From the IMG/VR virus record IMGVR_UViG_3300037847_000937, positions 1 through 35,191 of that record: DNA of 35,191 nt; one strand, given 5' to 3'. This DNA comes from a virus. Both the position numbers and the translations under genes were made by a program. Under the pieces are notes generated by a model. It ran no database searches, was not told where the DNA came from, and saw only the letters and a list, made by a program, of their open reading frames with translations. Below are positions 1-35,191 of the stretch, piece by piece. Positions within the stretch are counted from its first letter, which is position 1; each line of letters starts with the position of its first letter.

Positions 1-141
1 TGTCAACAAGTCAGCATACTTATTTTTGAAGTATGGATTGTCAGCAGTTGCACCTGGATTATTTAACTCGTGATACAAGTTAAACAAATCCATATTGAAA
101 CCATCTAAGTTAGTTTCTTTCTTTGTCTTTGTGTCTGGCAT
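1..141 (-). CDS. erf: ERF-family ssDNA-annealing recombinase, N-terminal part (continues at 35191)
   Basis: This is the 5' end of the ERF gene, running off the left edge and continuing at the right end of the window. The 47 codons here join in frame to the rest, giving a protein of 214 residues. ATG codons occur at 147 and 141 in the same frame. A GGAG motif lies 7 nt before the ATG at 141 but only 1 nt before the one at 147, so 141 is the likely start. The start lies inside the preceding 46-aa gene (110-250), which suggests coupled translation. The ERF role is single-strand annealing together with the phage exonuclease and SSB encoded next to it. Codon 47 reads ACA here and ACT at the other end; both encode Thr. 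Confidence 0.88.
   Translation of the reverse strand, partial: MPDTKTKKETNLDGFNMDLFNLYHELNNPGATADNPYFKNKYADLLT
2..99. repeat. Terminal direct repeat, left copy (circular closure)
   Basis: These 98 bases are identical to 35094-35191. Base 1 (T) differs from the corresponding base 35093 (A). The repeat lies inside the ERF gene, whose frame continues correctly through the junction, so the two ends are the same locus. An assembly overlap of a circular or circularly permuted molecule explains this best. A true short terminal redundancy cannot be excluded from one sequence. Confidence 0.95.
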
Positions 142-250
142 TGTCATACTCCACTATTAAGTTGTTAATAAATCCTGAATATTTCTCACACATATTTTCA
201 TTGTAAGTTTTATTCCACATTAGTATTATTTCTTTCAATGTAAACTTCAT
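110..250 (-). CDS. 46-aa protein of unknown function between exonuclease and ERF
   Basis: An ORF of 46 codons starts at ATG 250 (MKFTLKEI...) and ends with TAA at 110-112. It has a good ribosome-binding site: AAGGAG lies 8 nt before the ATG, inside the last codons of the exonuclease gene, whose stop codon is 1 nt from this start. The 3' end overlaps the start of ERF in another frame. Its position between an exonuclease and an annealing protein suggests an accessory recombination role, but I recognise no family. It has no membrane segment and is charged and partly basic at the C terminus. Confidence 0.6.
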   Translation of the reverse strand: MKFTLKEIILMWNKTYNENMCEKYSGFINNLIVEYDNARHKDKERN

Positions 251-251
251 C

Positions 252-1052
252 TTAGTTTCTCCTTTTTACAGCAAGTGTACCTTTCTTGTTGCGTGTTATT
301 AAATAGTTACTACCTGAAAACTGTACTTGTTTAGCATCAGGAGGTACAAGTAACTTCATCTTCTTCTTCGTTTCTTCGAAGCTCGATACAGCACCTTCGT
401 ATTGCATAAGCATACCGTCTAACTTTTTGTATTCTTCATTGTTAAAGTTGTCATAGTTTTTTACACCATCAACTAGTATGTCTTGTGTGCTGTTAAATTT
501 TTCTTTGTCTGTTACAATAGGTGGCTGTTTATCATGTACTACAAACAACCAAAACCTTTTCATCTTTACTAATAGTTTGTTGTAGAACTCTTGGTTCCAA
601 TCTACTCTTACTACTTCAGGTTCTTCATTACCTCGTATAGCTGAGAACCAACAATAGTCTTGACAATACACTTGCATATAATGATGTAACTGTGGTGCAT
701 AGTATCTTGCTTTCTGTTCTACTGTTTGTCCTGGATTGGTATGTTTTACTTCAAGTACAACACCGTCAACTAAAGCATCTACATTAGCATACATTGGTAT
801 GTCATTTTCTTTATACCATTTTGCATCTTTAGGTTTGGTTACTTTTTTACTAGCAAAATCTTTTTTCTTTAGCCAGTCTATATGAAATGATTCTGTGTAT
901 GTACCTAGTTGTACTTTCCATTCCATAGATAAATCATCTTCCATATCTCGTTTGGTTTTAATACTCCACAATCTAGCTAAGTCATAACCCCACCAAATTT
1001 TATGAGCATCACTACCACCAAGTCCTTTAGTTCTATCAAATTTAAACTTCAT
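252..1052 (-). CDS. YqaJ/lambda-type phage exonuclease (PD-(D/E)XK)
   Basis: This 266-aa protein carries the expected nuclease core: an N-terminal LGGSD motif (residues 11-15), a Glu near 54 in a helix, Asp92, E101-V-K103, and a Gln at 121 in a YYAPQLHHYMQ helix. These fit the lambda-exonuclease/YqaJ branch of PD-(D/E)XK enzymes, which resect double-stranded ends to produce ssDNA for an annealing protein. The ERF and SSB genes follow in the same operon, which supports that role. ATGs occur at 1058 and 1052. The AAGGAG motif is 7 nt from the second, so I use 1052. A promoter lies just upstream at 1073-1101. Confidence 0.88.
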   Translation of the reverse strand: MKFKFDRTKGLGGSDAHKIWWGYDLARLWSIKTKRDMEDDLSMEWKVQLGTYTESFHIDWLKKKDFASKKVTKPKDAKWYKENDIPMYANVDALVDGVVLEVKHTNPGQTVEQKARYYAPQLHHYMQVYCQDYCWFSAIRGNEEPEVVRVDWNQEFYNKLLVKMKRFWLFVVHDKQPPIVTDKEKFNSTQDILVDGVKNYDNFNNEEYKKLDGMLMQYEGAVSSFEETKKKMKLLVPPDAKQVQFSGSNYLITRNKKGTLAVKRRN

Positions 1053-1072
1053 AATCATTCTCCTTTATAATA

Positions 1073-1101
1073 ATTATAATGCATAACTGCATATTAATCA
1101 A
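1073..1101 (-). promoter_or_regulatory. Sigma70-like promoter for the exo-ERF-SSB-lysozyme operon
   Basis: On the minus strand TTGATT (1101-1096) and TATAAT (1078-1073) are separated by exactly 17 nt. The promoter lies between a terminator (1106-1141) and the exonuclease start, so it opens a new transcription unit. A palindromic operator (1079-1092) fills the spacer next to the -10 box. Confidence 0.75.
1079..1092. promoter_or_regulatory. Operator-like palindrome, site 1 (ATGCA-TAAC-TGCAT)
   Basis: This is a perfect 5-bp inverted repeat around a 4-nt spacer, placed inside the promoter spacer and abutting the -10 box. Near-identical sites lie at 2424-2437 and 4981-4994, each on a leftward promoter. 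Repression by a dimeric HTH protein is the simplest reading. Confidence 0.65.
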
Positions 1102-1105
1102 GCAT

Positions 1106-1141
1106 AAAAAAAGCCAGCAAACATAGAGTAATACTGGCTTT
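1106..1141 (-). terminator. Rho-independent terminator after the replication genes
   Basis: On the minus strand an 8-bp stem, AAAGCCAG (1141-1134) with CTGGCTTT (1117-1110), encloses a 16-nt loop and runs into a U-tract (1112-1106). It follows the stop codon of the leftward gene ending at 1160. Confidence 0.85.
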
Positions 1142-1159
1142 AAGAAGAATGAACTAAGA

Positions 1160-1753
1160 CTACTGTTTTAGGGATGTAAGTCTTTGCCACGCAACCTCAC
1201 ACCACCTAAGAAAAGTCTGACAGAAATCTAATTTCTTGTCAACACTTTCTCTGATAGTAGCAGGTAGTGGAAAGAAGTTATACTTGTGTGTCTTCATTAC
1301 ATTTACTATAGCTTCACGCATATAGATAGGCGGTATGTCTTTGATCGCTTCAATGTAATAGTATAGTCCATCATCCTTTGGCATTTCACATTGGAATGTA
1401 TCACCTAATAACTGTAAACTTTTTACAATCTTTTCTTTAGGTGAATGTTGCAATGTTATATTAAGATTAGTTATTATCTTTTCTAGTTGATGTGTTAATA
1501 CATCTATCTCTTTGTTACCTTTTAATTCTTGTAATGCTTCGGATGTTGCTCTCATTACTGTGTCTATTAAGATAAGTTCTCGCTGAGTCAGAGTTACTGG
1601 TAGCAATTCTGGTTGGTTTAGAATAGGCTGAGTTCGTTTGTTTCTTATTACCCAGCTTGAAAGAAAGTCTGCACCAGTATCTAAATCTTGCGTTCCAGTT
1701 TCTGCTTGTGTACCCTTTTGATAAGTAGTAGTCGACAAATTGTTCGTGTTCAT
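1160..1753 (-). CDS. Possible helicase loader or replication accessory protein
   Basis: This 197-aa protein begins at ATG 1753, where GGAGG lies 9 nt upstream, inside the DnaT-like gene. From about residue 35 it is a convincing helical protein. Near residues 120-180 there is a segment (LQLLGDTFQ, then IPPIYMREAI, then FFPLPATIRE) resembling the small helical domain of phage helicase-loader proteins such as G39P. That match is from memory and weak. Roughly the first 80 codons overlap the DnaT-like gene in a different frame, and the early part is Thr/Asn/Gln-rich and looks less protein-like. A frameshifted fusion with the upstream gene is an alternative. A terminator follows. Confidence 0.6.
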   Translation of the reverse strand: MNTNNLSTTTYQKGTQAETGTQDLDTGADFLSSWVIRNKRTQPILNQPELLPVTLTQRELILIDTVMRATSEALQELKGNKEIDVLTHQLEKIITNLNITLQHSPKEKIVKSLQLLGDTFQCEMPKDDGLYYYIEAIKDIPPIYMREAIVNVMKTHKYNFFPLPATIRESVDKKLDFCQTFLRWCEVAWQRLTSLKQ

Positions 1754-1865
1754 AGTCCAAGTCCTCCATTGTAGCATCTTTAAATTTATTAAAGAACCAA
1801 GTTTGTATGTCTAAGCTTGGCTCCCAAGTTTCTTTTATTGGTTCTTCGGTATTGTTGTTACCCAT
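1515..1865 (-). CDS. DnaT-like primosomal protein
   Basis: A 116-aa protein. Residues about 14-72 show a WEPS motif, a YEHEQFVDYYLSKG helix and NWNARFRYWCR, the pattern of the DnaT-like ssDNA-binding domain found at the C terminus of DnaT and in phage replication proteins (usually W-x-PS ... FRdYW ... dWdaaFrnWlr). The role would be primosome assembly or delivery of the host helicase. The start has a GAGGTG site 5 nt upstream. The last 45 or so residues are Ser/Thr/Asn/Arg-rich without a domain pattern and coincide with the well-formed frame of the next gene. Confidence 0.65.
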   Translation of the reverse strand: MGNNNTEEPIKETWEPSLDIQTWFFNKFKDATMEDLDYEHEQFVDYYLSKGYTSRNWNARFRYWCRLSFKLGNKKQTNSAYSKPTRIATSNSDSARTYLNRHSNESNIRSITRIKR

Positions 1866-2227
1866 TTATTCACCTCACTTGCTTTGATATTATTTATAAT
1901 ACAACTATTAGTTAGTTCTATTAATTGTTTACGCAGTTTGTAAAGTTCTGTAGCATCTGCTTTAACATCTTCAATAACACGATACCCTCTGTGTCCATTA
2001 ATTTCTAATGTCATATACCTAAAGTCTGGCTGAAATGTACATACCTTTACATTATGTACAACAGCAGTAAGTGTAGGATATAATTCTAAATCAATGATTA
2101 ATTTCTGTTCAGAAAATTTTATAAGCTGTAAGTATCTATCAGCTTTAGCTTGAGTCTGAAAGTAAATCATCTTACCTTGATAAGGTTCGTATCTACCCTT
2201 TGGTTTTCTTTTTGTTTTTGATTTCAT
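1835..2227 (-). CDS. DUF1064-like PD-(D/E)XK nuclease
   Basis: A 130-aa basic protein with the layout of the DUF1064 phage family: YFQTQAKADRYLQL near residues 22-35, a hydrophobic strand IIDLELYP (44-51), QPDFRY (66-71), and VIEDVKA (84-90), then a helix rich in Lys/Arg. Asp68, Asp87 and Lys89 are the likely catalytic residues of a PD-(D/E)XK fold. The family is common in phage replication regions and is thought to act as a structure-specific nuclease, possibly resolvase-like. It overlaps the HTH gene upstream and the DnaT-like gene downstream by about 30 nt each. It lacks a strong ribosome-binding site and may be translated by coupling. Confidence 0.7.
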   Translation of the reverse strand: MKSKTKRKPKGRYEPYQGKMIYFQTQAKADRYLQLIKFSEQKLIIDLELYPTLTAVVHNVKVCTFQPDFRYMTLEINGHRGYRVIEDVKADATELYKLRKQLIELTNSCIINNIKASEVNKWVTTIPKNQ

Positions 2228-2402
2228 ATATATAATTCCACACAGTTACCGCTGTTGATTCTCTGAGTGAATACTTACTTGATTTAATTCTATGATATGT
2301 GCTTGCTTGCACACCAGCTTTCTGAAACGCAGTACTTAACTTGATACCTTTTTTGTCTGCAAGTTTTTTAAGCTGGTCATAATAAGTTAGTAGTCCATTC
2401 AT
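2193..2402 (-). CDS. Small HTH regulator, possibly the phage repressor
   Basis: A 69-aa basic protein with an N-terminal helical region and a helix-turn-helix around residues 22-48 (STAFQKAG, then ASTYHRIKSSKY), typical of short CI/XRE-like DNA-binding proteins. No sensor or cleavage domain follows. No Shine-Dalgarno is visible before the ATG. The predicted -10 box ends only 6 nt from the start codon, so its transcript is probably leaderless. A palindrome matching the operators of two other leftward promoters overlaps its -35 box, so autoregulation is plausible. Its gene overlaps the DUF1064-like gene by 35 nt. Confidence 0.65.
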   Translation of the reverse strand: MNGLLTYYDQLKKLADKKGIKLSTAFQKAGVQASTYHRIKSSKYSLRESTAVTVWNYIYEIKNKKKTKG

Positions 2403-2408
2403 AAATAT

Positions 2409-2437
2409 ATTCTATCATAGTGTATGCACAAGTGCAA
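2409..2437 (-). promoter_or_regulatory. Promoter of the HTH gene with operator site 3
   Basis: On the minus strand TTGCAC (2437-2432) and TAGAAT (2414-2409) are spaced by 17 nt. The palindrome at 2424-2437 (ATGCA-N4-TGCAA) covers the -35 box and matches sites at 1079 and 4981. Transcription would begin about at the start codon (2402). Confidence 0.65.
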
Positions 2438-2439
2438 CC

Positions 2440-2814
2440 CTACAGTTCAGCAGTTATAAAACAAGAGCCATGTTCTTTTACTTGTAGATACATTTTCTCT
2501 CCGAGTTCTAGTCTCGCATACCAACCTCTAAGATTATCTGCTTTATGTTCTGGTACATTTAACCATTCGGATAGAGTTTGAGCATACTTTGGATTACTTA
2601 CTATCTTGTTATAGAAGTGTTGCATTTGCTCAAGGTAATCTCCAATCTCCTCTCTGCATCTGGCTATACCATTTTCTATTAGACTTAAATCTTCTGTGTA
2701 ATAATCAACAGTATCACCTGGTTCTTCTACTGCTCCAAAGAATTTTGGATCATCACTTGGCTGTACTCCAAACCAGAACTTACCTTCGATATCTCCATGA
2801 TAATATCTACCCAT
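2440..2814 (-). CDS. Conserved-looking hypothetical protein (GRYYHGDIEGKFWFG type)
   Basis: A 124-aa acidic, aromatic-rich protein starting MGRYYHGDIEGKFWF. ATGs occur at 2817 and 2814. AAGGAG lies 3 nt from the first and 6 nt from the second, so 2814 is preferred. There is no membrane helix or signal peptide. The middle part (residues 44-90) looks helical. I recall similar starts in hypothetical proteins of environmental phages but know no function. It overlaps the upstream gene by 8 nt and ends just before the HTH gene promoter. Confidence 0.6.
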   Translation of the reverse strand: MGRYYHGDIEGKFWFGVQPSDDPKFFGAVEEPGDTVDYYTEDLSLIENGIARCREEIGDYLEQMQHFYNKIVSNPKYAQTLSEWLNVPEHKADNLRGWYARLELGEKMYLQVKEHGSCFITAEL

Positions 2815-3094
2815 CATTTTCTCCTTGTAACATTGCTTCTGCTTCTGCTTGACAAGCTATGTCATCACGAAACTGGATAGCATCATAAGCATTGTCAAAT
2901 ACTTTTACGATTTGAGGAAGTTCTTCACCATTTAACATATCTATCATTTCATAAAAGTCATAGGGTGATAGGTCGTAACCTTCTGGGTACATAGCTACTA
3001 CCCAGAATACATCATCACCATTCTTAGCCATGTTATAACTTGATTGACTTAGACACTCTAGCAGTCTTTCTCTATCTATTGGTTTTATAACCAT
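2807..3094 (-). CDS. Hypothetical acidic protein, 95 aa
   Basis: The start MVIKPIDRERL has AAGGAG 7 nt upstream, so initiation is well supported. The protein is acidic with a likely alpha/beta fold (FWVVAMYPEG near residue 30, then a helical C terminus rich in Ala and Glu). No family is recognised. It overlaps the winged-helix gene upstream by 23 nt and the next gene by 8 nt, so it is part of a tightly packed leftward operon. It might be a small host-takeover or anti-defence protein, given the ArdC-like gene nearby, but that is guesswork. Confidence 0.6.
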   Translation of the reverse strand: MVIKPIDRERLLECLSQSSYNMAKNGDDVFWVVAMYPEGYDLSPYDFYEMIDMLNGEELPQIVKVFDNAYDAIQFRDDIACQAEAEAMLQGENDG

Positions 3095-3437
3095 TTCTTT
3101 TCTCCTTATAATTTATGTGTGCTAATGCACCGTTTGGTGTAACAAACCAGACTCTTTGGTTTTTACCATGTTTGGATTTGCGTACACCGACTGATTGAAC
3201 TAAACCTTTTCTTTCTAGAAATACTCTTGCTGTTCGATACTTAGATGTAGTGATACCATCATGCAAAGATAGTTCTTCATCTGTCATACCAGATATACCA
3301 CCAACATCTACAATCAATTCAAGTATTCTTTCTTTGGCATTGTTTACTCTGCCAACTTCTTCTTGTGCGGCAACCTTGCTAGTATTTGGATCGTTCTTTC
3401 GTACTAGCTGTTGCCATTTTATATCGTCATCATTCAT
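3072..3437 (-). CDS. Winged-helix DNA-binding protein
   Basis: A 121-aa protein with a DPNTSKVAA segment (residues 17-25), a helical stretch ILELIVDVGG, then MTDEELSLHDG, TSKYRTARVFLERKGLV and a wing-like VWFV strand. The order TDEEL, SKYRTAR, L-x-x-KGLV is the classic winged-helix pattern seen in phage proteins that begin with TSK-AA segments. It probably binds DNA as a transcription or replication regulator. Two ATGs lie 6 nt apart; AAGGAG is 7 nt from the second (3437), which is chosen. It sits directly downstream of the ArdC-like gene. Confidence 0.65.
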   Translation of the reverse strand: MNDDDIKWQQLVRKNDPNTSKVAAQEEVGRVNNAKERILELIVDVGGISGMTDEELSLHDGITTSKYRTARVFLERKGLVQSVGVRKSKHGKNQRVWFVTPNGALAHINYKEKRNGYKTNR

Positions 3438-3448
3438 ATTCATTCTCC

Positions 3449-4369
3449 TTATTGATTAACTGCATCTTCATTACTAATGGCAAGTGACTCGTCTTGTTGG
3501 AGGTAAAGATACGAATCACTTGCATACTTACAAGCTGACCTTAGTGCATCTGGCTTATCTCTAAGAGCCTTAGCCCAACACTTCAAATACTTTGCGTGGT
3601 CTTTTCTAGTCTGATGAAACAAACCCCACTTAGCCATATGAAAGCTAGCACCAAACTCAGCTATAAGTTCCTCGAAGGCATAGTCTTTACTACCAAACTT
3701 CCCAGATAAATCTCTGTTCAATCTATCACTATGCCCTGACCAATGAGTTAGTTCATGATACATTACTGAGTAATATGTCTCAGGTAACTTGAATGAACTA
3801 TACATTGGCATCATTATCTTGTCTTCACTAGGTACATAACAAGCTCTGTTACTACCCTCAACAAAGTTTATGTTGTGAGTATGTATAATCGTAGCTATGT
3901 CATCATCTACCCTATGTATTCTTTCTTCTTTCATTGCGTTGCTGTGTACTGGTATCAAACTTTTCTTTAGTTCAATGATAGTGTTCTTGTCACCAGCAAC
4001 ATGGTCAATGTTATGTATTGATATTGTTTGATATCTTACACCAGCAACTTTATCTTCTTCTGTTTCTTTATCTTTAATTATTCTTGGTACTCGTTGCCAT
4101 AATGGTACACCACTTCTTGGTGCTGGATGTAAACCAATCTTCTTCCATTGGTTATATGTTCCCCATATAGGTGTCAAGTGTCCGTACTTAAAGTTTAAAT
4201 GAAACTGATTCCAACCCTTATACTCGTACCCATTTGGATTCTTATGCAATGAAGTAATCCACTTAGGTGTATATGGTTTGTTGATATCATGTTGTTCCCA
4301 TTCTTCTAGTATAGCTAATCTAATTTCCTCTGTATTTATCTTAGCTATTTCTGCAATAGTCTTAGTCAT
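3449..4369 (-). CDS. ArdC-like antirestriction protein with zincin domain
   Basis: A 306-aa protein with two recognisable parts. The N-terminal third has the ArdC ssDNA-binding pattern (NPNGYEYKGWNQFHL, residues 44-58, then TYNQWKKIG, 71-79). The C-terminal part is a zincin-like metallopeptidase domain with H205-E-L-T-H209, followed by SGHSDRLNR and an EELIAEFGA helix (third ligand probably one of Glu233, Glu234 or Glu238). ArdC proteins protect incoming DNA from restriction enzymes and are found on conjugative plasmids and in phages. Its place in the leftward early operon fits protection during DNA entry. The start has AAAGGG upstream. The length is normal for the family. Confidence 0.88.
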   Translation of the reverse strand: MTKTIAEIAKINTEEIRLAILEEWEQHDINKPYTPKWITSLHKNPNGYEYKGWNQFHLNFKYGHLTPIWGTYNQWKKIGLHPAPRSGVPLWQRVPRIIKDKETEEDKVAGVRYQTISIHNIDHVAGDKNTIIELKKSLIPVHSNAMKEERIHRVDDDIATIIHTHNINFVEGSNRACYVPSEDKIMMPMYSSFKLPETYYSVMYHELTHWSGHSDRLNRDLSGKFGSKDYAFEELIAEFGASFHMAKWGLFHQTRKDHAKYLKCWAKALRDKPDALRSACKYASDSYLYLQQDESLAISNEDAVNQ

Positions 4370-4373
4370 AGTC

Positions 4374-4697
4374 TTACCCTTTCATTAAATGTTTTCGATA
4401 TGTATCTTCTATAATTCTAGTTCCTCTCATTAGTTTATTGATGTCTCGTCTTCTTATTCTAGGTTTTAATTCATCCATAGCTTCATAAGATTTAGTATGA
4501 ATCCAACCTATTATGTCTGCTCTATCAACAACAGTAGTGTCAAAGTTTATTCTTTGTTTATGTATTCGCAACTTGATATATGCTGTTGCTATTCTTACAA
4601 TATCGAAATCGTAATCGCATACAAATCTCATATTGTGATCCGTTAGAAAACTTCTACGACTTTCGTGTTCTAACTGTGCGTGGAATGATTGGCTCAT
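4374..4697 (-). CDS. Hypothetical protein, 107 aa
   Basis: The start MSQSFHAQLEHESRR has GGAG 5 nt upstream. The protein is charged and Arg-rich (KPRIRRRDINKLMRG near residues 77-91), soluble and largely helical. No family is recognised. It overlaps the upstream 96-aa gene by 44 nt and ends 4 nt before the ArdC-like start, so all three are probably co-transcribed from the promoter at 4966-4994. Confidence 0.6.
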   Translation of the reverse strand: MSQSFHAQLEHESRRSFLTDHNMRFVCDYDFDIVRIATAYIKLRIHKQRINFDTTVVDRADIIGWIHTKSYEAMDELKPRIRRRDINKLMRGTRIIEDTYRKHLMKG

Positions 4698-4944
4698 CCT
4701 TTCTCCTTTCTCTCAACTGGTTGTTATATATATTTATCATTTGGTCATACCAAACTACATCATCACGATACTTGATATACATAGACTCTTTCATATCTTG
4801 TATCACTTTGGTTCTTGACTTGACCTTCATTGCGTCAGTAAATATATCTCGTAGAACTATGGCACGATTGCGTTGTGCTTCGTTCTCAAAGTGTTCATCT
4901 TCCGTTATAGTTTTTTCAAACTGTCTTAATAATTTACCAAACAT
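4654..4944 (-). CDS. Hypothetical helical protein, 96 aa
   Basis: The protein starts MFGKLLRQFEKT. An ATG five codons upstream (4959) is less likely because AGGAGGT lies 3-4 nt before the ATG at 4944. It is a highly charged, probably all-helical protein with no membrane segment and no recognised family. It is the first gene after a promoter carrying operator site 2, so it heads the operon that includes the ArdC-like and winged-helix genes. Confidence 0.6.
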   Translation of the reverse strand: MFGKLLRQFEKTITEDEHFENEAQRNRAIVLRDIFTDAMKVKSRTKVIQDMKESMYIKYRDDVVWYDQMINIYNNQLRERRKDEPIIPRTVRTRKS

Positions 4945-4965
4945 ATTACCTCCTAACATTATGGT

Positions 4966-4994
4966 ATTATATAATTAACAATGCATAACTGCAA
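4966..4994 (-). promoter_or_regulatory. Leftward promoter with operator site 2
   Basis: On the minus strand TTGCAG (4994-4989) and TATAAT (4971-4966) are spaced by 17 nt. The palindrome at 4981-4994 (ATGCA-TAAC-TGCAA) covers the -35 box. It shares 13 of 14 bases with site 1 at 1079-1092. The next gene starts at 4944, 22 nt beyond the -10 box. Confidence 0.65.
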
Positions 4995-5207
4995 CTATAA
5001 AGTATGTTGCTGCAATCTATATATATTTATAAACGAAATAATATATGCTATCACTGCTGATGTTGCACATACTGGTCCGAGTAAAAATCCGTAGTCACTT
5101 CTTGTTAATGCAAATACGATTGATAAAACACTAAGCATCATTGCAAGACAACTACTTACAGCTATCGTTAACAAAAGTTTGTTCCATTTTTTTCTGTAAG
5201 CTTGCAT
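4995..5207 (-). CDS. Small membrane protein, two transmembrane helices
   Basis: A 70-aa protein with a basic N terminus (QAYRKKWNK) and two hydrophobic segments at about residues 11-34 and 42-62. The start at 5207 is set by an exceptionally strong ribosome-binding site, AAGGAGGTGAT, 7 nt from the ATG; an ATG at 5225 lies before that site. The topology would place both ends on the cytoplasmic side. It could be an early inner-membrane protein or a second holin, but it has no recognisable holin motif and lies away from the lysis genes. The 3' end abuts operator site 2. Confidence 0.6.
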   Translation of the reverse strand: MQAYRKKWNKLLLTIAVSSCLAMMLSVLSIVFALTRSDYGFLLGPVCATSAVIAYIISFINIYRLQQHTL

Positions 5208-5312
5208 ACCATCACCTCCTTTCAAAACTGGGTGGCAAAATTACAATTCTCAATCCATATCCCCCTACCCCAGCGAGATAGGGCGGTGATATGTTTTTTA
5301 TTCATCAAACAG

Positions 5313-5325
5313 ACTGCCGAAGGCA
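5313..5325. other. Small perfect hairpin (CTGCC-GAA-GGCAG)
   Basis: A 5-bp stem with a 3-nt loop lies between the 151-aa gene terminator and the next leftward gene. Similar GC-rich mini-hairpins occur at 5937-5946, 6017-6029 and 6748-6764 around the terminase small-subunit locus. Confidence 0.5.
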
Positions 5326-5341
5326 GACCATTTCAAAGAAT

Positions 5342-5376
5342 AAAAAAATGAGGACAGCCCTAGCTAGACTGTCCTC
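5342..5376 (-). terminator. Rho-independent terminator of the 151-aa gene
   Basis: On the minus strand GAGGACAG (5376-5369) pairs with CTGTCCTC (5357-5350) around an 11-nt loop, followed by A and seven U. It starts 8 nt after the stop codon region of the gene ending at 5384, making that gene a separate transcription unit. The stem and loop align with coding sequence of the terminase small subunit (6584-6604) in the other arm. Confidence 0.88.
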
Positions 5377-5383
5377 TTGAGAG

Positions 5384-5839
5384 TTATCTTAGTAAGAAAG
5401 CTTTGTTGTTTGTAACTTGCTTTGAGTTAGTATCTTGTGGTTTCCATACTTCGCCTGTAACCATCTCATATACATCTGCGAAGAAGATATATTCTGCCCT
5501 CCAATATTTGTAGGCTAAATCGTCTGGCTTTCTCATTTCGGCGAGCTCGTCTAAAAGTTCGTGCTTTAGATCATCGTTCAGAACAAAATCAGGTGACTCG
5601 ATTTCCTGAGCTTTTGAGTCCCAATGCTTGGTACCTTTTATCCTATAATCTTTATTGCCTTCGCTGTACTGCTCTTGTTGTTTGTAAGCAACTGATACTT
5701 GATTAGCAATGAACTTGATTCGACTGTCTGGTAACTGCTGACCTTCCGAGTTCTTGTATTTACAATTCAATATCATTTCTTTGATGATTGAAAGTCTATC
5801 TGTTTTGTCGTTTAAGTTTTTATGATTTGTTTTTGTCAT
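5384..5839 (-). CDS. Unrecognised 151-aa protein in the left arm of the inverted repeat
   Basis: The start MTKTNHKNLNDK has AAAGG about 8 nt upstream; a further ATG at 5878 lacks a site. The protein is soluble, rich in Lys, Asp, Glu and Tyr, with a probable helical N-terminal half and a C-terminal region (HELLDELAEMRKPDD, then YWRAEYIFFADVYEM). I recognise no family. It is monocistronic, with its own terminator, and is transcribed divergently from the terminase small subunit. Its DNA is homologous to the terminase locus in inverted orientation. Some shared blocks are in the same frame (QDTNS here, QDANS in TerS) and others are not. It may be a neofunctionalised or overprinted derivative, an early regulator, or a relic. 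Confidence 0.65.
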   Translation of the reverse strand: MTKTNHKNLNDKTDRLSIIKEMILNCKYKNSEGQQLPDSRIKFIANQVSVAYKQQEQYSEGNKDYRIKGTKHWDSKAQEIESPDFVLNDDLKHELLDELAEMRKPDDLAYKYWRAEYIFFADVYEMVTGEVWKPQDTNSKQVTNNKAFLLR

Positions 5840-6131
5840 TGTATTTACCTTTCTGTAATATAAGTTGTTAATAATCATAAGGATGTCCGCCTATCACCGT
5901 AAAATATAAAGTCCACTACTAATTTGGGGGGGAATGGCGATAGCCAATGATAAAGGGCGAAGCACAATATAACCCTCCAGGAATAAAGGGGGGGAACCGA
6001 ATTAGTAGTGGATATAGTCGCAAGGCGACAGAAATATAGGGTGCTACGCACACCATATACTTTCTATTTTACTGTGGTAGAAGGGTAATATCCTATGATT
6101 ATTAACCTACTTATATGAGAGGAAAGGTAAA
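5840..6131. promoter_or_regulatory. Divergent control region at the centre of the inverted repeat
   Basis: This stretch separates the leftward and rightward arms and encodes no protein. Both arms carry the same upstream elements in mirror image: TTAGTAGTGGA, then a TATGAT -10-like box (5879-5874 on minus; 6094-6099 on plus) leading into ATTATTAAC, then an AAAGG site and ATGACAAAAAC. The left side also has TTTACG 18 nt from its TATGAT. The 75-nt centre (5925-5999) holds two runs of seven G (5926-5932, 5988-5994), each followed by AA. The right arm has an extra 48 nt or so (6013-6060) with two small hairpins. Promoters are likely on both sides; exact boxes are not certain. Confidence 0.65.
6017..6054. 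other. Pair of small hairpins present only in the right arm
   Basis: GTCGC-AAG-GCGAC (6017-6029) and GGTG-CTACGCA-CACC (6040-6054) lie in a segment with no counterpart in the left arm. The second loop contains TGCTACGCA (6042-6050), found again at 6718-6726. CTACGCACA (6044-6052) recurs inverted at 6687-6695. Confidence 0.5.
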
Positions 6132-6297
6132 ATGACAAAAACGAATCAGGAATAAAAACTTGGACTCGTGACAAAACAGATAGGCTTTCACTTATCAAGC
6201 TGGCGTATCAACATTTATCAATAAATACAAGAACTTGGAAGGTCGTCAAATTATTTACTTGACAGTCGTATCAAGAGAATGGTAATCAAGTACCAAT
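6132..6297 (+). pseudogene. Degenerate copy of the 5' end of the 151-aa gene
   Basis: From ATG 6132 the sequence matches the start of the leftward gene (ATGACAAAAAC then AATCA, with one mismatch over 17 nt) and keeps the AAAGG site upstream. The frame closes with TAA after seven codons (MTKTNQE). Further blocks align through 6290 with insertions and another in-frame stop (TGA before the GACAGTCG block). The copy therefore cannot make the same N-terminal region. It might act as a short leader upstream of the terminase gene, or be a relic of the duplication. Confidence 0.75.
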
Positions 6298-6675
6298 ATG
6301 AGTCAACAAACAACAAAAGCATCTCTTACAGCGAAGCAATCCAGATTTATTGATAACTTGTTAGCAGGCATTGGGACACAAGAGCGGTGTGCAATCGAGG
6401 CAGGTTATTCTGAACGATCAGCTAAAGTCGAAGCGAGTCGCCTTTTGAGAAAGACAGCGATTTTGACAGTACTTGCCGAGAGGGCACGAATGTCCCTTCG
6501 AGCCAGATGTGTGAGTGCGTTGCAGACTGTATCAAAACTATCACAAGATGCTAACTCAGAGTATGTTAGATTAGAGGCGAGTAAGGACATTCTAGATAGG
6601 GCTGGCATCAGAGATGATTCTACTAGCCACAATCCTATCACAAACGCAATACAAGTTAATATAGACCTATCTTAG
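6298..6675 (+). CDS. terS: Terminase small subunit
   Basis: A 125-aa protein with the Terminase_2-type N-terminal pattern: LTAKQSRFIDNLL (residues 10-22), TQERCAIEAGYSERSAKVEASRLLRK (a helix-turn-helix, about 27-52), and a C-terminal LEASKDILDRAGI motif. TerS binds the packaging initiation site and recruits the large subunit to start headful or site-specific packaging. It is the first intact gene of the rightward arm. The ribosome-binding site is weak. Its whole coding sequence lies inside the right arm of the inverted repeat, and the conserved ILDRAG coding region aligns with the terminator of the leftward gene. No frameshift is apparent. Confidence 0.85.
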   Translation: MSQQTTKASLTAKQSRFIDNLLAGIGTQERCAIEAGYSERSAKVEASRLLRKTAILTVLAERARMSLRARCVSALQTVSKLSQDANSEYVRLEASKDILDRAGIRDDSTSHNPITNAIQVNIDLS

Positions 6676-6705
6676 CCCTATCTCGCTGTGCGTAGATTAG
6701 GGATT

Positions 6706-6744
6706 GACCGCCCACCTTGCTACGCATATGTGTAGGGGGTGGTC
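6706..6744. other. Long hairpin downstream of terS
   Basis: An outer stem (GACC at 6706-6709 with GGTC at 6741-6744, continuing CCC with GGG) encloses a near-perfect palindrome CTACGCAT-ATGTGTAG (6720-6735). No U-tract follows, so it is not a standard terminator. The TGCTACGCA motif (6718-6726) also occurs upstream of terS. It is a candidate packaging signal or mRNA processing site. Confidence 0.5.
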
Positions 6745-6747
6745 AAA

Positions 6748-6764
6748 AATGCCGACAAGGCATT
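6748..6764. other. Perfect 6-bp hairpin (AATGCC-GACAA-GGCATT)
   Basis: The hairpin lies 3 nt after the long hairpin at 6706-6744 in the untranslated gap between terS and the small basic genes. It resembles the other mini-hairpins around this locus. No U-tract follows. Confidence 0.5.
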
Positions 6765-6794
6765 AAGTAACACGACTAGCTTCCGTATTTTTCC

Positions 6795-6823
6795 TTTACA
6801 AAAGTCCTTCAATGTTTTATGTA
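6795..6823 (+). promoter_or_regulatory. Candidate promoter for the late genes
   Basis: TTTACA (6795-6800) is followed after 17 nt by TATGTA (6818-6823), a poor -10. The position upstream of a string of overlapping genes and downstream of hairpins suits a late promoter, but the match is weak. Confidence 0.3.
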
Positions 6824-6848
6824 TGGAATATAACTAAAGGAGAATACA

Positions 6849-6983
6849 ATGCCAGGTACAATGAAATCATATGGAACTGTAATGAAGAAGAAAAAAAAGA
6901 ACGGTGGTTTAAAAGGTAATCAGAAGAAGCTACCTACTGCTCTGAAGAACAAAATACTAAAGAGCAAAAAAAGAAAAGCATAA
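6849..6983 (+). CDS. Very basic 44-aa protein
   Basis: The start MPGTMKSYGTVMKKKKK has AAAGGAG about 7 nt upstream. The protein is extremely Lys-rich, with clusters at residues 13-17 and 34-43, and has no hydrophobic core. Its stop overlaps the start of the next gene (TAATG). It probably binds nucleic acid or packs with DNA in the virion, as an inference from composition and neighbours. Ordinary annotation could miss it because of its length. Confidence 0.6.
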   Translation: MPGTMKSYGTVMKKKKKNGGLKGNQKKLPTALKNKILKSKKRKA

Positions 6984-7135
6984 TGGCAAAGCTGTGTGCT
7001 AAAGGTAAAGCCGCCGCTAAACGAAAGTTTAAAGTTTATCCAAGTGCTTATGCTAATATGTATGCTTCTGGTGTGTGTTCAGGTAGAATAAAACCAAAGT
7101 CTGCTAAGAAGAAAACCAAAAGGAAACGCAAATGA
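6983..7135 (+). CDS. Basic 50-aa protein (MAKLC...KFKVYPSAYAN type)
   Basis: It begins MAKLCAKGKAAAKRKFKVYPSAYANMYASG and ends in a Lys/Arg-rich tail. The AAKRKFKVYPSAYAN core with two flanking Cys residues (5 and 32) is a pattern I recall from many marine phages, with no assigned function. It is linked by TAATG to the gene before and ATGA to the gene after, so the set is translated as a coupled string between the two terminase genes. Confidence 0.65.
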   Translation: MAKLCAKGKAAAKRKFKVYPSAYANMYASGVCSGRIKPKSAKKKTKRKRK

Positions 7136-29085: not shown

Positions 29086-29406
29086 ATGGCAACAAGAATG
29101 TCAGATCAAGTAAGAGCATACTGTACAGATAAAGGTTTTAGTGGTGAAGTAAAGTTTGTGGGACCAGAAGCAAATGTTATAATGGAAGAAGTAGATGGTT
29201 CAATTACTATTAAACATTGGTCAGTAGATGGTGTAGCAAAACCAACTATATCTACACTAAACACATATGCAAAGCAAGGCAAAGCATTAGAAGATGCAAT
29301 CATTGCTTTTGATAATAAAAGAGATGATTTAAAAGCTAGTGCTAAAACTAAGTTAAAAGACTTAGGTCTTACTGATGATGAAATAAAAGCTACTTTAGGA
29401 ATGTAA
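29086..29406 (+). CDS. Hypothetical protein, possible tail-fibre assembly factor
   Basis: A 106-aa protein with a beta-rich first half and a helical second half (TYAKQGKALEDAIIAFDNKRDDLKASAKTKLKDLG). The end has KLKDLGLTDDEIKATLG. It lies between fibre genes, as small fibre chaperones do, but I do not recognise a chaperone family with certainty. Its stop overlaps the start of the next gene (TAATG). Confidence 0.55.
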   Translation: MATRMSDQVRAYCTDKGFSGEVKFVGPEANVIMEEVDGSITIKHWSVDGVAKPTISTLNTYAKQGKALEDAIIAFDNKRDDLKASAKTKLKDLGLTDDEIKATLGM

Positions 29407-29972
29407 TGTCAGGTATAATTTCCGCAGGTATTAATAGGTCTTCAGGATTAATGAAAGCACTAGCATCAGGTGGTAATACACCATCATTTATGGCAGTACG
29501 AGGTGAAGATACTTGTTCTGGTGATAGCTGTAGACAATTATTAACTGATGCAACATTAGATAAATGTGAATTTAATCAAGAAATATATGATACAGATGGT
29601 TGTTATGATGTATCAAATTACAGATTTGTTCCAAGTACAGCAGGGTTCTATTATATAGAAGCTAAGTTTAAATTAAGGTGTCATACAGATAGATTCATAA
29701 CTTCTGATAGTTATTTAAGATTTAATGGAGGAAGTTCTGCAACAGATATATTAGCAGGACATAGACATCATGGTTCTCAAAGCAGTGGATATACTTATGA
29801 TGCAGAACTTAATGTTCATTTATCAGCAATAAAAGAATTTAATGGTTCGTCAGATTATGTTGAAGTGTGGACTAATTTTAATGTAACTACTGGTGTTCCT
29901 ATTTTTGTTGGTGGTAGTACAAATGCTAGCATTTGGAGACAATCACATTTTCATGGATTTAAATTAGGATAA
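29406..29972 (+). CDS. C1q-like receptor-binding protein, copy 1
   Basis: A 188-aa protein, first of three tandem paralogues. The N terminus SGIISAGINRSSGLMKAL is shared by all three. The body has F-M-A-x-RG at residues 33-38, a CSGDSC motif (42-47), FNQEIYDTDGCYDVSNYRFVPSTAG (59-83) and FNGSSDYVEVW, a pattern close to C1q/TNF-like jelly rolls, which trimerise and often bind receptors or glycans. It is inferred to be part of the adhesion apparatus at the tail. Four Cys residues at conserved places may pair. Confidence 0.65.
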   Translation: MSGIISAGINRSSGLMKALASGGNTPSFMAVRGEDTCSGDSCRQLLTDATLDKCEFNQEIYDTDGCYDVSNYRFVPSTAGFYYIEAKFKLRCHTDRFITSDSYLRFNGGSSATDILAGHRHHGSQSSGYTYDAELNVHLSAIKEFNGSSDYVEVWTNFNVTTGVPIFVGGSTNASIWRQSHFHGFKLG

Positions 29973-29974
29973 TT

Positions 29975-30529
29975 ATGTCAGGTATTATAGGAGCAAATGT
30001 AGGAAGGTCGTCAGGTTTAAAAAAAGTTTTACCTGCTGGTGGCAATACACCAATGTTTATGGCACATAGAGGTGCTGATGGTTGTTCTGGTGATGGTTGT
30101 TCGCAAAGTACATCAGATAATACTTACACAAAAGCATACTTCAATGGTGAAAGAATAGATACAGATAACTGTTATGATCCAAGTACCTATAGATGGACAC
30201 CAAATAAAGCAGGTAAGTATTATATATTTGCTAAACTATATATGGGTGAATATCAAGATAGATTAGTTATAGCTAGAACTGAATTTAGAATCAATGGTAA
30301 TAACTATGGTGTAGGACAGCAAACAAGTTATGATGCAGAATTTCAAAGTTCTGGGTATAGTAGAGATGCTCAAGTAAATAATACAATGGCTCAAATAATT
30401 GAATTCAATGGTAGTTCTGATTATGTAGAGTGTTGGTTACAAGTAGACCAAAGTGCAAATTATGCAAGACTTTTTGGTGGTGGTCAATCAGCAGATGGTA
30501 GTTATTGGGGTGGTTTTTATATAGGATAA
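29975..30529 (+). CDS. C1q-like receptor-binding protein, copy 2
   Basis: A 184-aa protein paralogous to its neighbours: SGIIGANVGRSSGLKKVL, FMAHRGADGCSGDGC, FNGERIDTDNCYDPSTYRWTP, then NGSSDYVECWLQ. The starts of copies 2 and 3 both use an AGGA that overlaps the previous gene stop, so translation is coupled. The framework residues are kept while loops differ (for example around residues 95-125), as expected of diversified binding surfaces. Confidence 0.65.
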   Translation: MSGIIGANVGRSSGLKKVLPAGGNTPMFMAHRGADGCSGDGCSQSTSDNTYTKAYFNGERIDTDNCYDPSTYRWTPNKAGKYYIFAKLYMGEYQDRLVIARTEFRINGNNYGVGQQTSYDAEFQSSGYSRDAQVNNTMAQIIEFNGSSDYVECWLQVDQSANYARLFGGGQSADGSYWGGFYIG

Positions 30530-30531
30530 TT

Positions 30532-31080
30532 ATGACTGGTATCATATCAAATAATGTAGGTAGAGATTCAGGTTTAATAAAAGCAACAGCTGGTGCATCT
30601 AACAAACCATACTTTATGGCATACAGAGGAACCAATGATTGTTCAGGAGATGCATGTAATTATAACTTTAGTGATAACAGTTATGTAAAGACACCATTTA
30701 ATAATGAAGCTATAGATTCTGATAGTTGTTATGATGTATCTAATTATAGATTTACTCCAAATGTAGCAGGTAAATATTTTGTTTTTGCATCTGTTCGTAC
30801 AACTGGAGGTACATTAGATAGGTGGCAACAAGGATATTATGAAATAAGAAAAAACAATACTAGAGAGGTTGGTTCTTATTATGATGGTGGTGGTCAAAGT
30901 TCTGGGTATACAAGAGATTATTCTAATACTATGTATCTTTCTACAGTAGTAGATATGAATGGTAGTTCAGATTATTTAGAAGTTTATATGAAAGTAGATG
31001 AGTCGTCTTCTACCCCCTGGTTATCTGGTGGTCCAGGCAATTATTTTCCAACATATTTTGGAGCATATAAGTTAGCATGA
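30532..31080 (+). CDS. C1q-like receptor-binding protein, copy 3
   Basis: A 182-aa third paralogue: TGIISNNVGRDSGLIKAT, FMAYRGTNDCSGDAC, FNNEAIDSDSCYDVSNYRFTP, then NGSSDYLEVYMK. The ATG at 30532 aligns with the starts of the other two copies and follows an AGGA, so the upstream in-frame GTG at 30505 is not used. Copies 1-3 have diverged most in the strands after residue 85. Its stop overlaps the start of the 27-aa AT-hook peptide. Confidence 0.65.
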   Translation: MTGIISNNVGRDSGLIKATAGASNKPYFMAYRGTNDCSGDACNYNFSDNSYVKTPFNNEAIDSDSCYDVSNYRFTPNVAGKYFVFASVRTTGGTLDRWQQGYYEIRKNNTREVGSYYDGGGQSSGYTRDYSNTMYLSTVVDMNGSSDYLEVYMKVDESSSTPWLSGGPGNYFPTYFGAYKLA

Positions 31081-33321: not shown

Positions 33322-33765
33322 TCAGTCATAAAACTTTTGTCCAGCTTCTTTCATCAACAACACAATTCTTTCTGCTCTACTTTTTGTTTGTTCATACCAT
33401 TTAGAGTCTTGAGCTTCGATACTTGCTTGATCGTAGTTACCTTTCTCAAGTGCGGCAATCATATTCTTGAACTTACTGAACCTAGTTATGCCTAAATTAA
33501 ATGCCATATTGTATACAGCTTTCTGTATTGGATGTGGTGCTGTCTTCATAAAGGGATAGTTTACATCTACCTCTGCTATTACTTCTTCTATTCTTGCTTG
33601 TAATAATAGTCTTGCTTCTTTCTCAGACAGTCCATGACTTTCTACTTCTATGCCATAGCCAATAGTTTTTAATCCTGCTGGACAATCATAAACTATATGT
33701 CTTCCTCTATCATTAGTTATTGAACCTTCATCTCTTACTAAATCATTTACTAAATCATCTATCAT
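33322..33765 (-). CDS. Phage lysozyme (GH24 endolysin)
   Basis: A 147-aa protein with catalytic-type Glu13 (RDEGS), Asp27 followed by CPAGLKTIGYG (28-38), and the C-terminal PIQKAVYNMAFNLGITRFSKFKNMIAAL region of T4-type lysozymes. The CPAG-x-x-TIGYG version is a common subclass. There is an insertion between Glu13 and Asp27 compared with T4. No signal peptide is present, so release depends on the holin. GGAGG lies 8 nt before the ATG. It is the last gene of the leftward operon that also encodes ERF and SSB, not next to the holin. Confidence 0.88.
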   Translation of the reverse strand: MIDDLVNDLVRDEGSITNDRGRHIVYDCPAGLKTIGYGIEVESHGLSEKEARLLLQARIEEVIAEVDVNYPFMKTAPHPIQKAVYNMAFNLGITRFSKFKNMIAALEKGNYDQASIEAQDSKWYEQTKSRAERIVLLMKEAGQKFYD

Positions 33766-34031: not shown

Positions 34032-34259
34032 CTACAAATATATTACATTACCTTTAGTATATTCGTCTAGGTTAATATCAAGTCCATAAATTTCAGACAA
34101 CACTTTTAATGTTCTAAGTGAAGGCAATCTTCTTTCGGAGTTGACTATTGTGGATATAGAAAGCTCCGACAAGTTAGACACTTCTAAGTATGTTAATTGT
34201 TTCTTAGCTCTAGCTTGTCGAAGTTTATCACATATATTAGAATGGCGGTGCGTCATCAT
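34032..34259 (-). CDS. XRE/Cro-type HTH regulator
   Basis: A 75-aa protein that is little more than a Cro/CI-type DNA-binding domain: ICDKLRQARAKKQLTYLEVSNLSELSISTIVNSERRLPSLRTLKVLSEIYGL. Helices 2 and 3 fall at about residues 24-43. It is encoded inside the recombination operon and its start overlaps the SSB 3' end by 23 nt; no clear ribosome-binding site is seen, so translation is probably coupled. It is a candidate partner for the palindromic operators at 1079, 2424 and 4981. Confidence 0.75.
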   Translation of the reverse strand: MMTHRHSNICDKLRQARAKKQLTYLEVSNLSELSISTIVNSERRLPSLRTLKVLSEIYGLDINLDEYTKGNVIYL

Positions 34260-34605
34260 CTGCTACACTCTTAGTCGTACCACCATCTCCTTTCTTTTCA
34301 CATAGTTCAATACGACTATTGTATTCACCACAAACTATACTCCACCATGTCTTACCTTCATCATCTTTACGAGAACGAAGCTCGCCTTCTAAGTATACTA
34401 TGCTACCTTTCTTTACATAGTCTAATACAAACTTGGCTTTGTACTCATCAAAGACAGAGACTCTATGATGGTCTGCCTTTCTATTTTCTTGTGTGCCAGA
34501 GTTAGTAGTAACTACTAGCTTACACCATGTCTTGTCGTCTCTTGCTATTCTCTCTGGATCTACTGCACAATAACCAAGACAAGTAAATTTATTTACTGTT
34601 CTCAT
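34237..34605 (-). CDS. ssb: Single-stranded DNA-binding protein
   Basis: A 122-aa OB-fold SSB: MRTVNKFTCLGYCAVDPE at the N terminus, then HHRVSVFDEYKAKFVLDYVKKGSIVYLEGELRSR, and an acidic tail ending DDDAPPF, the tip used by bacterial SSBs to recruit partner enzymes. A GTG in frame at 34617 is available, but GAGG lies 6 nt before the ATG at 34605, so that is the start. It overlaps the ERF gene by 17 nt. It would coat ssDNA made by the exonuclease for ERF-driven annealing. Confidence 0.9.
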   Translation of the reverse strand: MRTVNKFTCLGYCAVDPERIARDDKTWCKLVVTTNSGTQENRKADHHRVSVFDEYKAKFVLDYVKKGSIVYLEGELRSRKDDEGKTWWSIVCGEYNSRIELCEKKGDGGTTKSVADDDAPPF

Positions 34606-35191
34606 TTTTAACCTCACTTTCTTTTATAAATTTAATTTGTTCTTTGTATGAATTTTGAAACCACTTTTGATCGTCTTTAGTAAGAGCTTCTATTTCATCT
34701 TTGTATGTAAAATATAATTTATCTAACATAGCTTTGTCTGCTGATTCATGGATAGTATCAGTAAACTCTTGCTTCAATCTATTGATATCTTTCTCTGTCT
34801 TACCACTTGCAGCTTGACCATCATCATCTGTGTCTGCAACTATACCAAGTATAGACTGCATACCATATCTTCTAGCATAAGTAATAGCACTACCTTGTTG
34901 CTGTGGATCTGCTGGATTTTTACAGACCAATGGTACACCTTCATCTTCAATACTTTCACCAGATATATGACGCAGTATAGTTTTAAGTAAAGGTGTTTTA
35001 GATCCACTATCACTTAATACACTTGGTTGCTTTACTACTTGAAACAAAATAAACCCATGTTTGTATAATATAGGTTTTACTGTTTTGATAATAGTCAACA
35101 AGTCAGCATACTTATTTTTGAAGTATGGATTGTCAGCAGTTGCACCTGGATTATTTAACTCGTGATACAAGTTAAACAAATCCATATTGAA
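34589..35191 (-). CDS. erf: ERF-family ssDNA-annealing recombinase (main part; 5' end at 1-141)
   Basis: This carries most of the 214-aa ERF protein; the 5' end continues at 1-141 of the window. The ERF pattern is clear: NPYFKNKYADLLTIIKTVKPIL, KHGFILFQVV, then GSAITYARRYGMQSILGI followed by DTDDDGQA. ERF proteins form rings that anneal complementary ssDNA; they replace RecT/Beta in phages such as P22. The C-terminal third is charged and helical. An internal ATG at 35185 is not the start, because the frame and a better ribosome-binding site continue across the junction. Confidence 0.9.
   Translation of the reverse strand, partial: FNMDLFNLYHELNNPGATADNPYFKNKYADLLTIIKTVKPILYKHGFILFQVVKQPSVLSDSGSKTPLLKTILRHISGESIEDEGVPLVCKNPADPQQQGSAITYARRYGMQSILGIVADTDDDGQAASGKTEKDINRLKQEFTDTIHESADKAMLDKLYFTYKDEIEALTKDDQKWFQNSYKEQIKFIKESEVKNENSK
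35094..35191. repeat. Terminal direct repeat, right copy
   Basis: Identical to bases 2-99. See the left copy; together they define a unit length of 35,092 bp. Confidence 0.95.

Follow-up and report, generated by a model that had tools for sequence, protein, structure and literature searches.

A proposed Cro-like early repressor and its three palindromic operators in an uncultured tailed phage

Three closely matching palindromes lie at leftward promoters of a 35,191-bp viral DNA, and the question raised by this locus is whether they are the operators of one regulatory system and which protein would read them. The DNA, in the following called the window, is the complete IMG/VR record IMGVR_UViG_3300037847_000937. 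An earlier note on it had proposed a phage regulon with autoregulation, and the coordinates claimed there for the palindromes are exact:

1079-1092, op1, ATGCA-TAAC-TGCAT (ATGCATAACTGCAT), in the spacer between the -35 and -10 boxes of the promoter of the exonuclease gene (exo)
2424-2437, op2, ATGCA-CAAG-TGCAA (ATGCACAAGTGCAA), within the promoter of the HTH1 gene
4981-4994, op3, ATGCA-TAAC-TGCAA (ATGCATAACTGCAA), over the -35 box of the ArdC-operon promoter

Together with HTH1, a small helix-turn-helix (HTH) protein, the three palindromes almost certainly form a genuine genetic switch that regulates itself and belongs to a general type that is well known, because the same arrangement of three sites, linked to one small DNA-binding protein, is seen again in very distant relatives. 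As judged from sequence, it is quite probable that HTH1 acts as a Cro-like early repressor through the palindromes at three early promoters, its own included. The idea of an autoregulated regulon has found support in the scan with controls, in conservation, and in the absence of sites where the regulator is lacking.

The genome-wide scan for TGCA-N4-TGCA with shuffled controls has returned exactly these three copies in the whole 35,191 bp and no others; 3/3 are intergenic and none is found in a gene, with intergenic DNA making up only ~1.56 kb (<5%) of the window. Shuffles of the whole window hold 0.92 copies on average and reach three in 4/100 cases, and the mean for shuffled intergenic segments is 0.025. 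In an unbiased scan of half-sites with gaps of 0-14, in which the intergenic families have been ranked, TGCA-N4-TGCA has come out as the top intergenic family and as the sole one with three intergenic and zero genic copies. A chance origin, with pairs of the self-complementary TGCA arising in intergenic DNA that is AT-rich, could draw on the observation that some half-site/gap family reaches three copies in 4/200 shuffles of intergenic DNA, but it is refuted by conservation and by recurrence in distant lineages, and its probability is negligible. As TGCA is self-complementary, the site could formally be called a direct repeat as well as an inverted one; the inverted-repeat reading is the correct one, since relatives show symmetric outer bases (ACTGC-N6-GCAGT). 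An exact-pattern scan of viral contigs with AATGCATAACTGCA gave 95 matches and has been judged uninformative alone.

Relatives have been collected with the exonuclease as query, which yielded 15 IMG/VR contigs, and with HTH1 and a second HTH protein (HTH2) as queries, which added more. Conservation in relatives, named earlier as a check, extends down to ~60% protein identity (HTH1, exo), with all three positions preserved wherever a contig covers the DNA concerned. Unlike the arms, which are constant, the N4 core differs between contigs (GTTA, GTTC, GAAA, CTTA, TTTA, TAAA, CTTG, CTAA), the sole arm exception being op3 of L135, in which one base is changed and TGC-N6-GCA is retained. In some relatives a new gene has been inserted behind op1, with the operator remaining with the promoter. 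Near-complete relatives carry three sites each (exactly three in G004, G006, and G007), one of them with an additional fourth inside a gene near op1. A fourth TGCA-N4-TGCA has been observed in one subgroup (L005:1408, L009:7824), near the end of the gene for a conserved 205-residue protein and ~105 bp before op1. Among annotated isolates, the nearest by terminase, Pelagibacter phage Hodr (65% identical), has neither HTH1 nor the palindrome, and the next, MEP301, a phage of OM43 bacteria (45% identical), is without HTH1; a tblastn search of GenBank phages has given no convincing HTH1 homolog.

An exonuclease profile search has brought in ~60 further contigs at 27-35% identity, among them the L186-L193 group, in most members of which TGCA-N4-TGCA precedes the start of an HTH1 homolog by 23 bp and HTH2 is lacking. 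A search with a widened HTH1 alignment has yielded L219/L226, L221/L227, L241-L243 with L248-L250, L244/L245, and L246/L247, and three of its matches are scaffolds of one Novosphingobium metagenome-assembled genome (MAG). The distant homologs are 29-47% identical, keep STY[HY]R, and lie in loci with a GC content of 0.38-0.61. TGC-N6-GCA is present 7-49 bp upstream of the HTH1 homolog in each distant lineage; for control open reading frames (ORFs), such a site within 60 bp occurs in 18/237 (~8%). At least five lineages with an exo of only 27-34% identity encode an HTH1 homolog with the upstream site; in four of them the exo promoter and the early operon have sites as well, and in one the HTH1 site stands alone. 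Three good sites each, at the early operon, HTH1, and exo, are found in the whole records G010, G012, and G013; G010 and G013 also contain weaker matches at other positions, with one mismatch to the extended pattern. The operator is located in the promoter of its own regulator gene in 27/27 contigs of the window genus that have HTH1, 34-42 bp upstream of the gene, and in the distant lineages, with one mismatch in L244/L245 and not in L211, where the HTH1 homolog, with its different helix (SVLFR), is not preceded by a TGCA-type site. Among exo relatives, the exo-promoter site co-occurs with HTH1 (15/1/3/10, Fisher 2.6e-4, with rows that are not independent), and relatives without HTH1 are also without the exo site, except L216; together with Hodr, this bears out the expected absence of sites where the regulator is absent. 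By these comparisons, the window phage is not alone in having the three-site layout (early/ArdC operon, HTH1, exo operon), which recurs at ~30% exo identity.

Two of the distant loci show further motifs. In L211, a palindrome of the same geometry (ATGTT-CGTA-AACAT, L211:5773-5784) is located in the leader of the HTH1 homolog as a single copy in the locus, and TACGAAC/TGCGAAC repeats upstream of the gene (L211:5660-5705) are possible iterons. In L246/L247, the HTH1 promoter (L246:1753-1800) has a second half-site, GGGTTGCA ... TGCAACCC, around -35 and -10.

As to the protein that would bind, three candidates are encoded in the window:

2193-2402, minus strand, HTH1, 69 residues, predicted lambda-repressor-like fold, recognition helix QASTYHR, the proposed repressor
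34032-34259, minus strand, HTH2, 75-residue XRE-type protein of the op1 operon (HTH_3, E 0.0016, under the curated cut-off)
3072-3443, minus strand, small basic protein of the op3 operon (phrog_1123, E 1.5e-4), possibly of winged-helix/HTH fold

Linkage inside the window is uninformative on the binder, there being one candidate DNA-binding protein in every operon, and HTH2 or the 3072-3443 protein could by this measure bind the palindromes as well as HTH1. Their distribution, however, disfavours both: HTH2 is confined to the window genus and missing from every operator-bearing lineage outside it, the 3072-3443 protein is found in most operator-bearing lineages and is lacking in G011, where the HTH1-promoter site is retained, whereas HTH1 is present in all of them. 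We consider a different phage protein distinctly unlikely, and both have been set aside. As the operator follows HTH1 across lineages, HTH1 is clearly the strongest candidate for the binder; the earlier note proposed binding tests with both HTH proteins, of which HTH1 is a likely binder and HTH2, with its genus-only distribution, is not. The predicted structure of HTH1 comprises four helices (mean predicted local distance difference test score, pLDDT, 80), and its top PDB matches are nearly all of XRE type (DdrO, HipB, CylR2, C.Esp1396I, P22 c2, and SinR), with a single remote fold match to Aca10 and another to Aca1. A sequence search of solved structures has returned no HTH1 relative, and 6/9 HTH1 family members match HTH_3/XRE (PF01381, best E 0.011), with no match for HTH1 of the window. 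The helix residues S34, T35, Y36, and R38 are invariant in the HTH1 alignment, and the operator TGC is likewise invariant. Outside TGC, STYHR goes with A or T and STYYR mostly with C, an outer C being found in 1/40 half-sites for STYHR versus 31/42 for STYYR among sites listed by hand, which is no more than suggestive of an outer base that moves with the recognition helix.

How a bound protein would act depends on the position of the sites in the promoters:

1073-1101, minus strand, op1 promoter of the exo operon, TTGATT-N17-TATAAT, 10/12 sigma70 consensus matches
2409-2437, minus strand, op2 promoter in its earlier reading, TTGCAC-N17-TAGAAT, with an alternative -10 box TATGAT at 2414-2419
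4966-4994, minus strand, op3 promoter, TTGCAG-N17-TATAAT, below the consensus-scan threshold
1099-1141 (approximate), minus strand, intrinsic terminator GCCAGTA...TGCTGGC-T7, -13.9 kcal/mol, z -3.9, closing the HTH1 operon immediately upstream of op1

Only the op1 promoter passes the sigma70 consensus scan, and because matches in 1-7000 are no commoner than chance (25 vs 28.9, i.e., no enrichment), the scan alone cannot support the promoters. In relatives, TTGA[TA]T and TA[TC]AAT at N17 are kept at op1, and the op3 -10 box, TATA[AC]T at N17, is kept in nearly all; at op2, the N17 -10 box (TAGAAT) is not conserved, and TATGAT/TATGCT at N12 is kept in most. The evidence for the earlier claim of 17-nt-spaced sigma70-like promoters is mixed: the op1 promoter is good, the op3 promoter has the conserved -10 box, and the op2 promoter as first read is weak and not firmly of this kind. 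Use of host factors is common among phages with host-type promoters, and the palindromes might in this manner bind such a factor or activate their promoters. Against this, the op1 and op3 sites lie inside 17-bp-spaced core promoters, where a bound protein would block the polymerase, sites are absent where HTH1 is absent (Hodr), and they are found in phages of 33-61% GC, which, given this span, probably have different hosts; activation or host-factor binding is in our view highly unlikely. MerR-like activation has been rejected on account of the normal 17-bp spacers of op1 and op3, and an RNA hairpin reading because the sites are upstream of the likely start points in the window genus.

Since the sites are positioned on the -35 box or between -35 and -10, repression with autoregulation is the most likely mode of action. 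The genes that would respond, in addition to those for the candidate binders, are:

252-1058, minus strand, RecE/YqaJ-like exonuclease (exo), first gene behind op1 (phrog_434, E 4.4e-24)
34589-35191, continuing across the ends into 141-1, minus strand, ERF recombinase of the op1 operon (PF04404, E 1.1e-19)
34237-34617, minus strand, SSB of the op1 operon (PF00436, E 9.3e-13)
33322-33765, minus strand, lysozyme/endolysin, last gene of the leftward op1 operon (phrog_7, phrog_13211)
1835-2227, minus strand, Holliday-junction-resolvase-like gene of the HTH1 operon (phrog_190, E 4.4e-5)
1160-1777, minus strand, conserved 205-residue protein of the HTH1 operon, with homologs in relatives
4654-4959, minus strand, first gene behind op3
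3449-4369, minus strand, ArdC-like antirestriction protein of the op3 operon (ArdcN, E 1.6e-8; MPTase-PolyVal, E 3.5e-38)

The gene order at the lysozyme gene is the same, on one contig each, in L001, L010, and L014. On the other side of op3, window positions 4995-5225 encode a conserved small hydrophobic protein; in several relatives, its stop precedes op3 by a few bp. In the proposed mechanism, host RNA polymerase would start all three host-type early promoters together upon phage entry. HTH1, probably as a dimer, would bind the 14-bp wTGCA-N4-TGCAw at each of them, i.e., at the op3 operon (ArdC and other small genes), the HTH1/resolvase/205-residue operon, and the exo/ERF/SSB/lysozyme operon. 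As it accumulates, it would fill the operators and exclude the polymerase, turning the early region off and limiting its own level.

Whether such repression would serve lytic growth or lysogeny can be weighed from the gene content. The window and ten HTH1-bearing relatives have given no match to PF00589 (Phage_integrase) or PF00239 (Resolvase), and a resolvase domain has been seen only in MEP301, which is without HTH1. Because of these missing matches, a Cro/Ner/Aca-like early shut-off is favoured over lysogeny. HTH1 could instead be a CI-like lysogeny repressor, silencing a phage that persists as a plasmid or has integrated through some unrecognised route. Such a repressor would hit all early promoters at once, and three HTH1 matches fall in the Novosphingobium MAG. 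In addition, no Shine-Dalgarno motif is read from the sequence before HTH1, the mRNA of which is possibly near-leaderless and recalls the lambda cI message, which is leaderless. Apart from the lack of integrase and resolvase matches, however, HTH1 is one 69-residue domain without a cleavage or oligomerisation domain, each promoter has one operator, and the Novosphingobium scaffolds are only 12-22 kb long, with integration neither seen nor tested. A CI-like role is accordingly rated as unlikely.

Several points weigh against HTH1 as a Cro-like early repressor. The protein falls under the Pfam HTH_3 curated cut-off, and its fold matches are weak (Foldseek E >= 0.4, Z <= 6.6). The STYHR/STYYR shift corresponds to one phylogenetic split, again in the hand-listed sites, the L221/L227 lineage has the HTH1 site and none at exo, the op2 -10 box is uncertain, and the absence of two recombinase families is no proof of a lytic cycle.

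Comparison with known systems places the proposed switch close to several of them. With the Cro/CI repressors of lambda, 434, and P22 it would share a small HTH protein (of predicted lambda-repressor-like fold in the case of HTH1), autoregulation, and operators inside promoters, and the 434 operators are 14-bp palindromes like those of the window. Unlike the clustered OR/OL sites of Cro/CI, one operator is found here at each of three dispersed promoters, and neither a second antagonistic repressor nor an integrase has been identified in the window phage; an adjacent opposing repressor with tripartite operators has not been found, HTH2 being genus-only and part of another operon. Ner of phage Mu is a small HTH repressor of early genes, and HTH1 would similarly lower early transcription during lytic growth, although no transposition genes have been identified in the window phage. 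In the Aca systems, an HTH autorepressor binds an inverted repeat in the core promoter of an anti-CRISPR (anti-defence) operon (PMC9410906). The candidate targets of HTH1 likewise include an operon with ArdC antirestriction, but they extend to three separate operons with recombination and lysis genes; HTH1 has its own promoter instead of being the last gene of an acr operon, and no acr gene has been identified in the window phage, with no search aimed at acr made. The closest described logic is that of the Aca repressors and of Cro or Ner.

The ends of the record overlap by 98-99 bp and the ERF ORF is continuous across the join, so that the map closes as a circle. It shows the gene set of a small tailed phage, with terminase, portal, capsid, and tail genes on the rightward side and recombination, SSB, resolvase, ArdC, and lysozyme genes on the left; the hosts are probably marine bacteria. 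A 540-bp inverted repeat, 69% identical (5384-5912/6059-6568), has been observed where the leftward early genes give way to the rightward late ones. The 5384-5878 gene is contained in one arm and, in a different frame, the start of the small-terminase gene (6298-6675) in the other, and because of the different frames either gene may stem from an inverted, frame-shifted duplication; the relatives L012 and L135 carry a similar repeat. Three consecutive genes at 29406-31080 match phrog_15750 and may form a tandem family.

No description of this regulon has been found in the open-access literature; the kind of system is known, and the HTH1 family with its fixed three-site layout appears undescribed. 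Chances seem about even that a family of small phages without a recognised integrase times its whole early programme, comprising anti-restriction, replication/recombination, and the regulator gene itself, with one Cro-like protein and exactly three operators, in a layout unaltered by protein divergence down to ~30% identity, and that the outer base has moved with one recognition-helix residue (H37/Y37). If true, this would provide a natural data set for reading the HTH-DNA recognition code, and the conserved layout in divergent phages offers material on joint change of repressor and operator. By this proposal, a gene family that is unrecognised by Pfam and weakly matched by PHROGs would acquire a function together with a binding site and a list of targets, and the prediction of one small protein at three sites is strong and cheaply testable. 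It concerns uncultured phages related, by a 65% identical terminase, to a SAR11-infecting isolate, for which the control of early genes seems little described.

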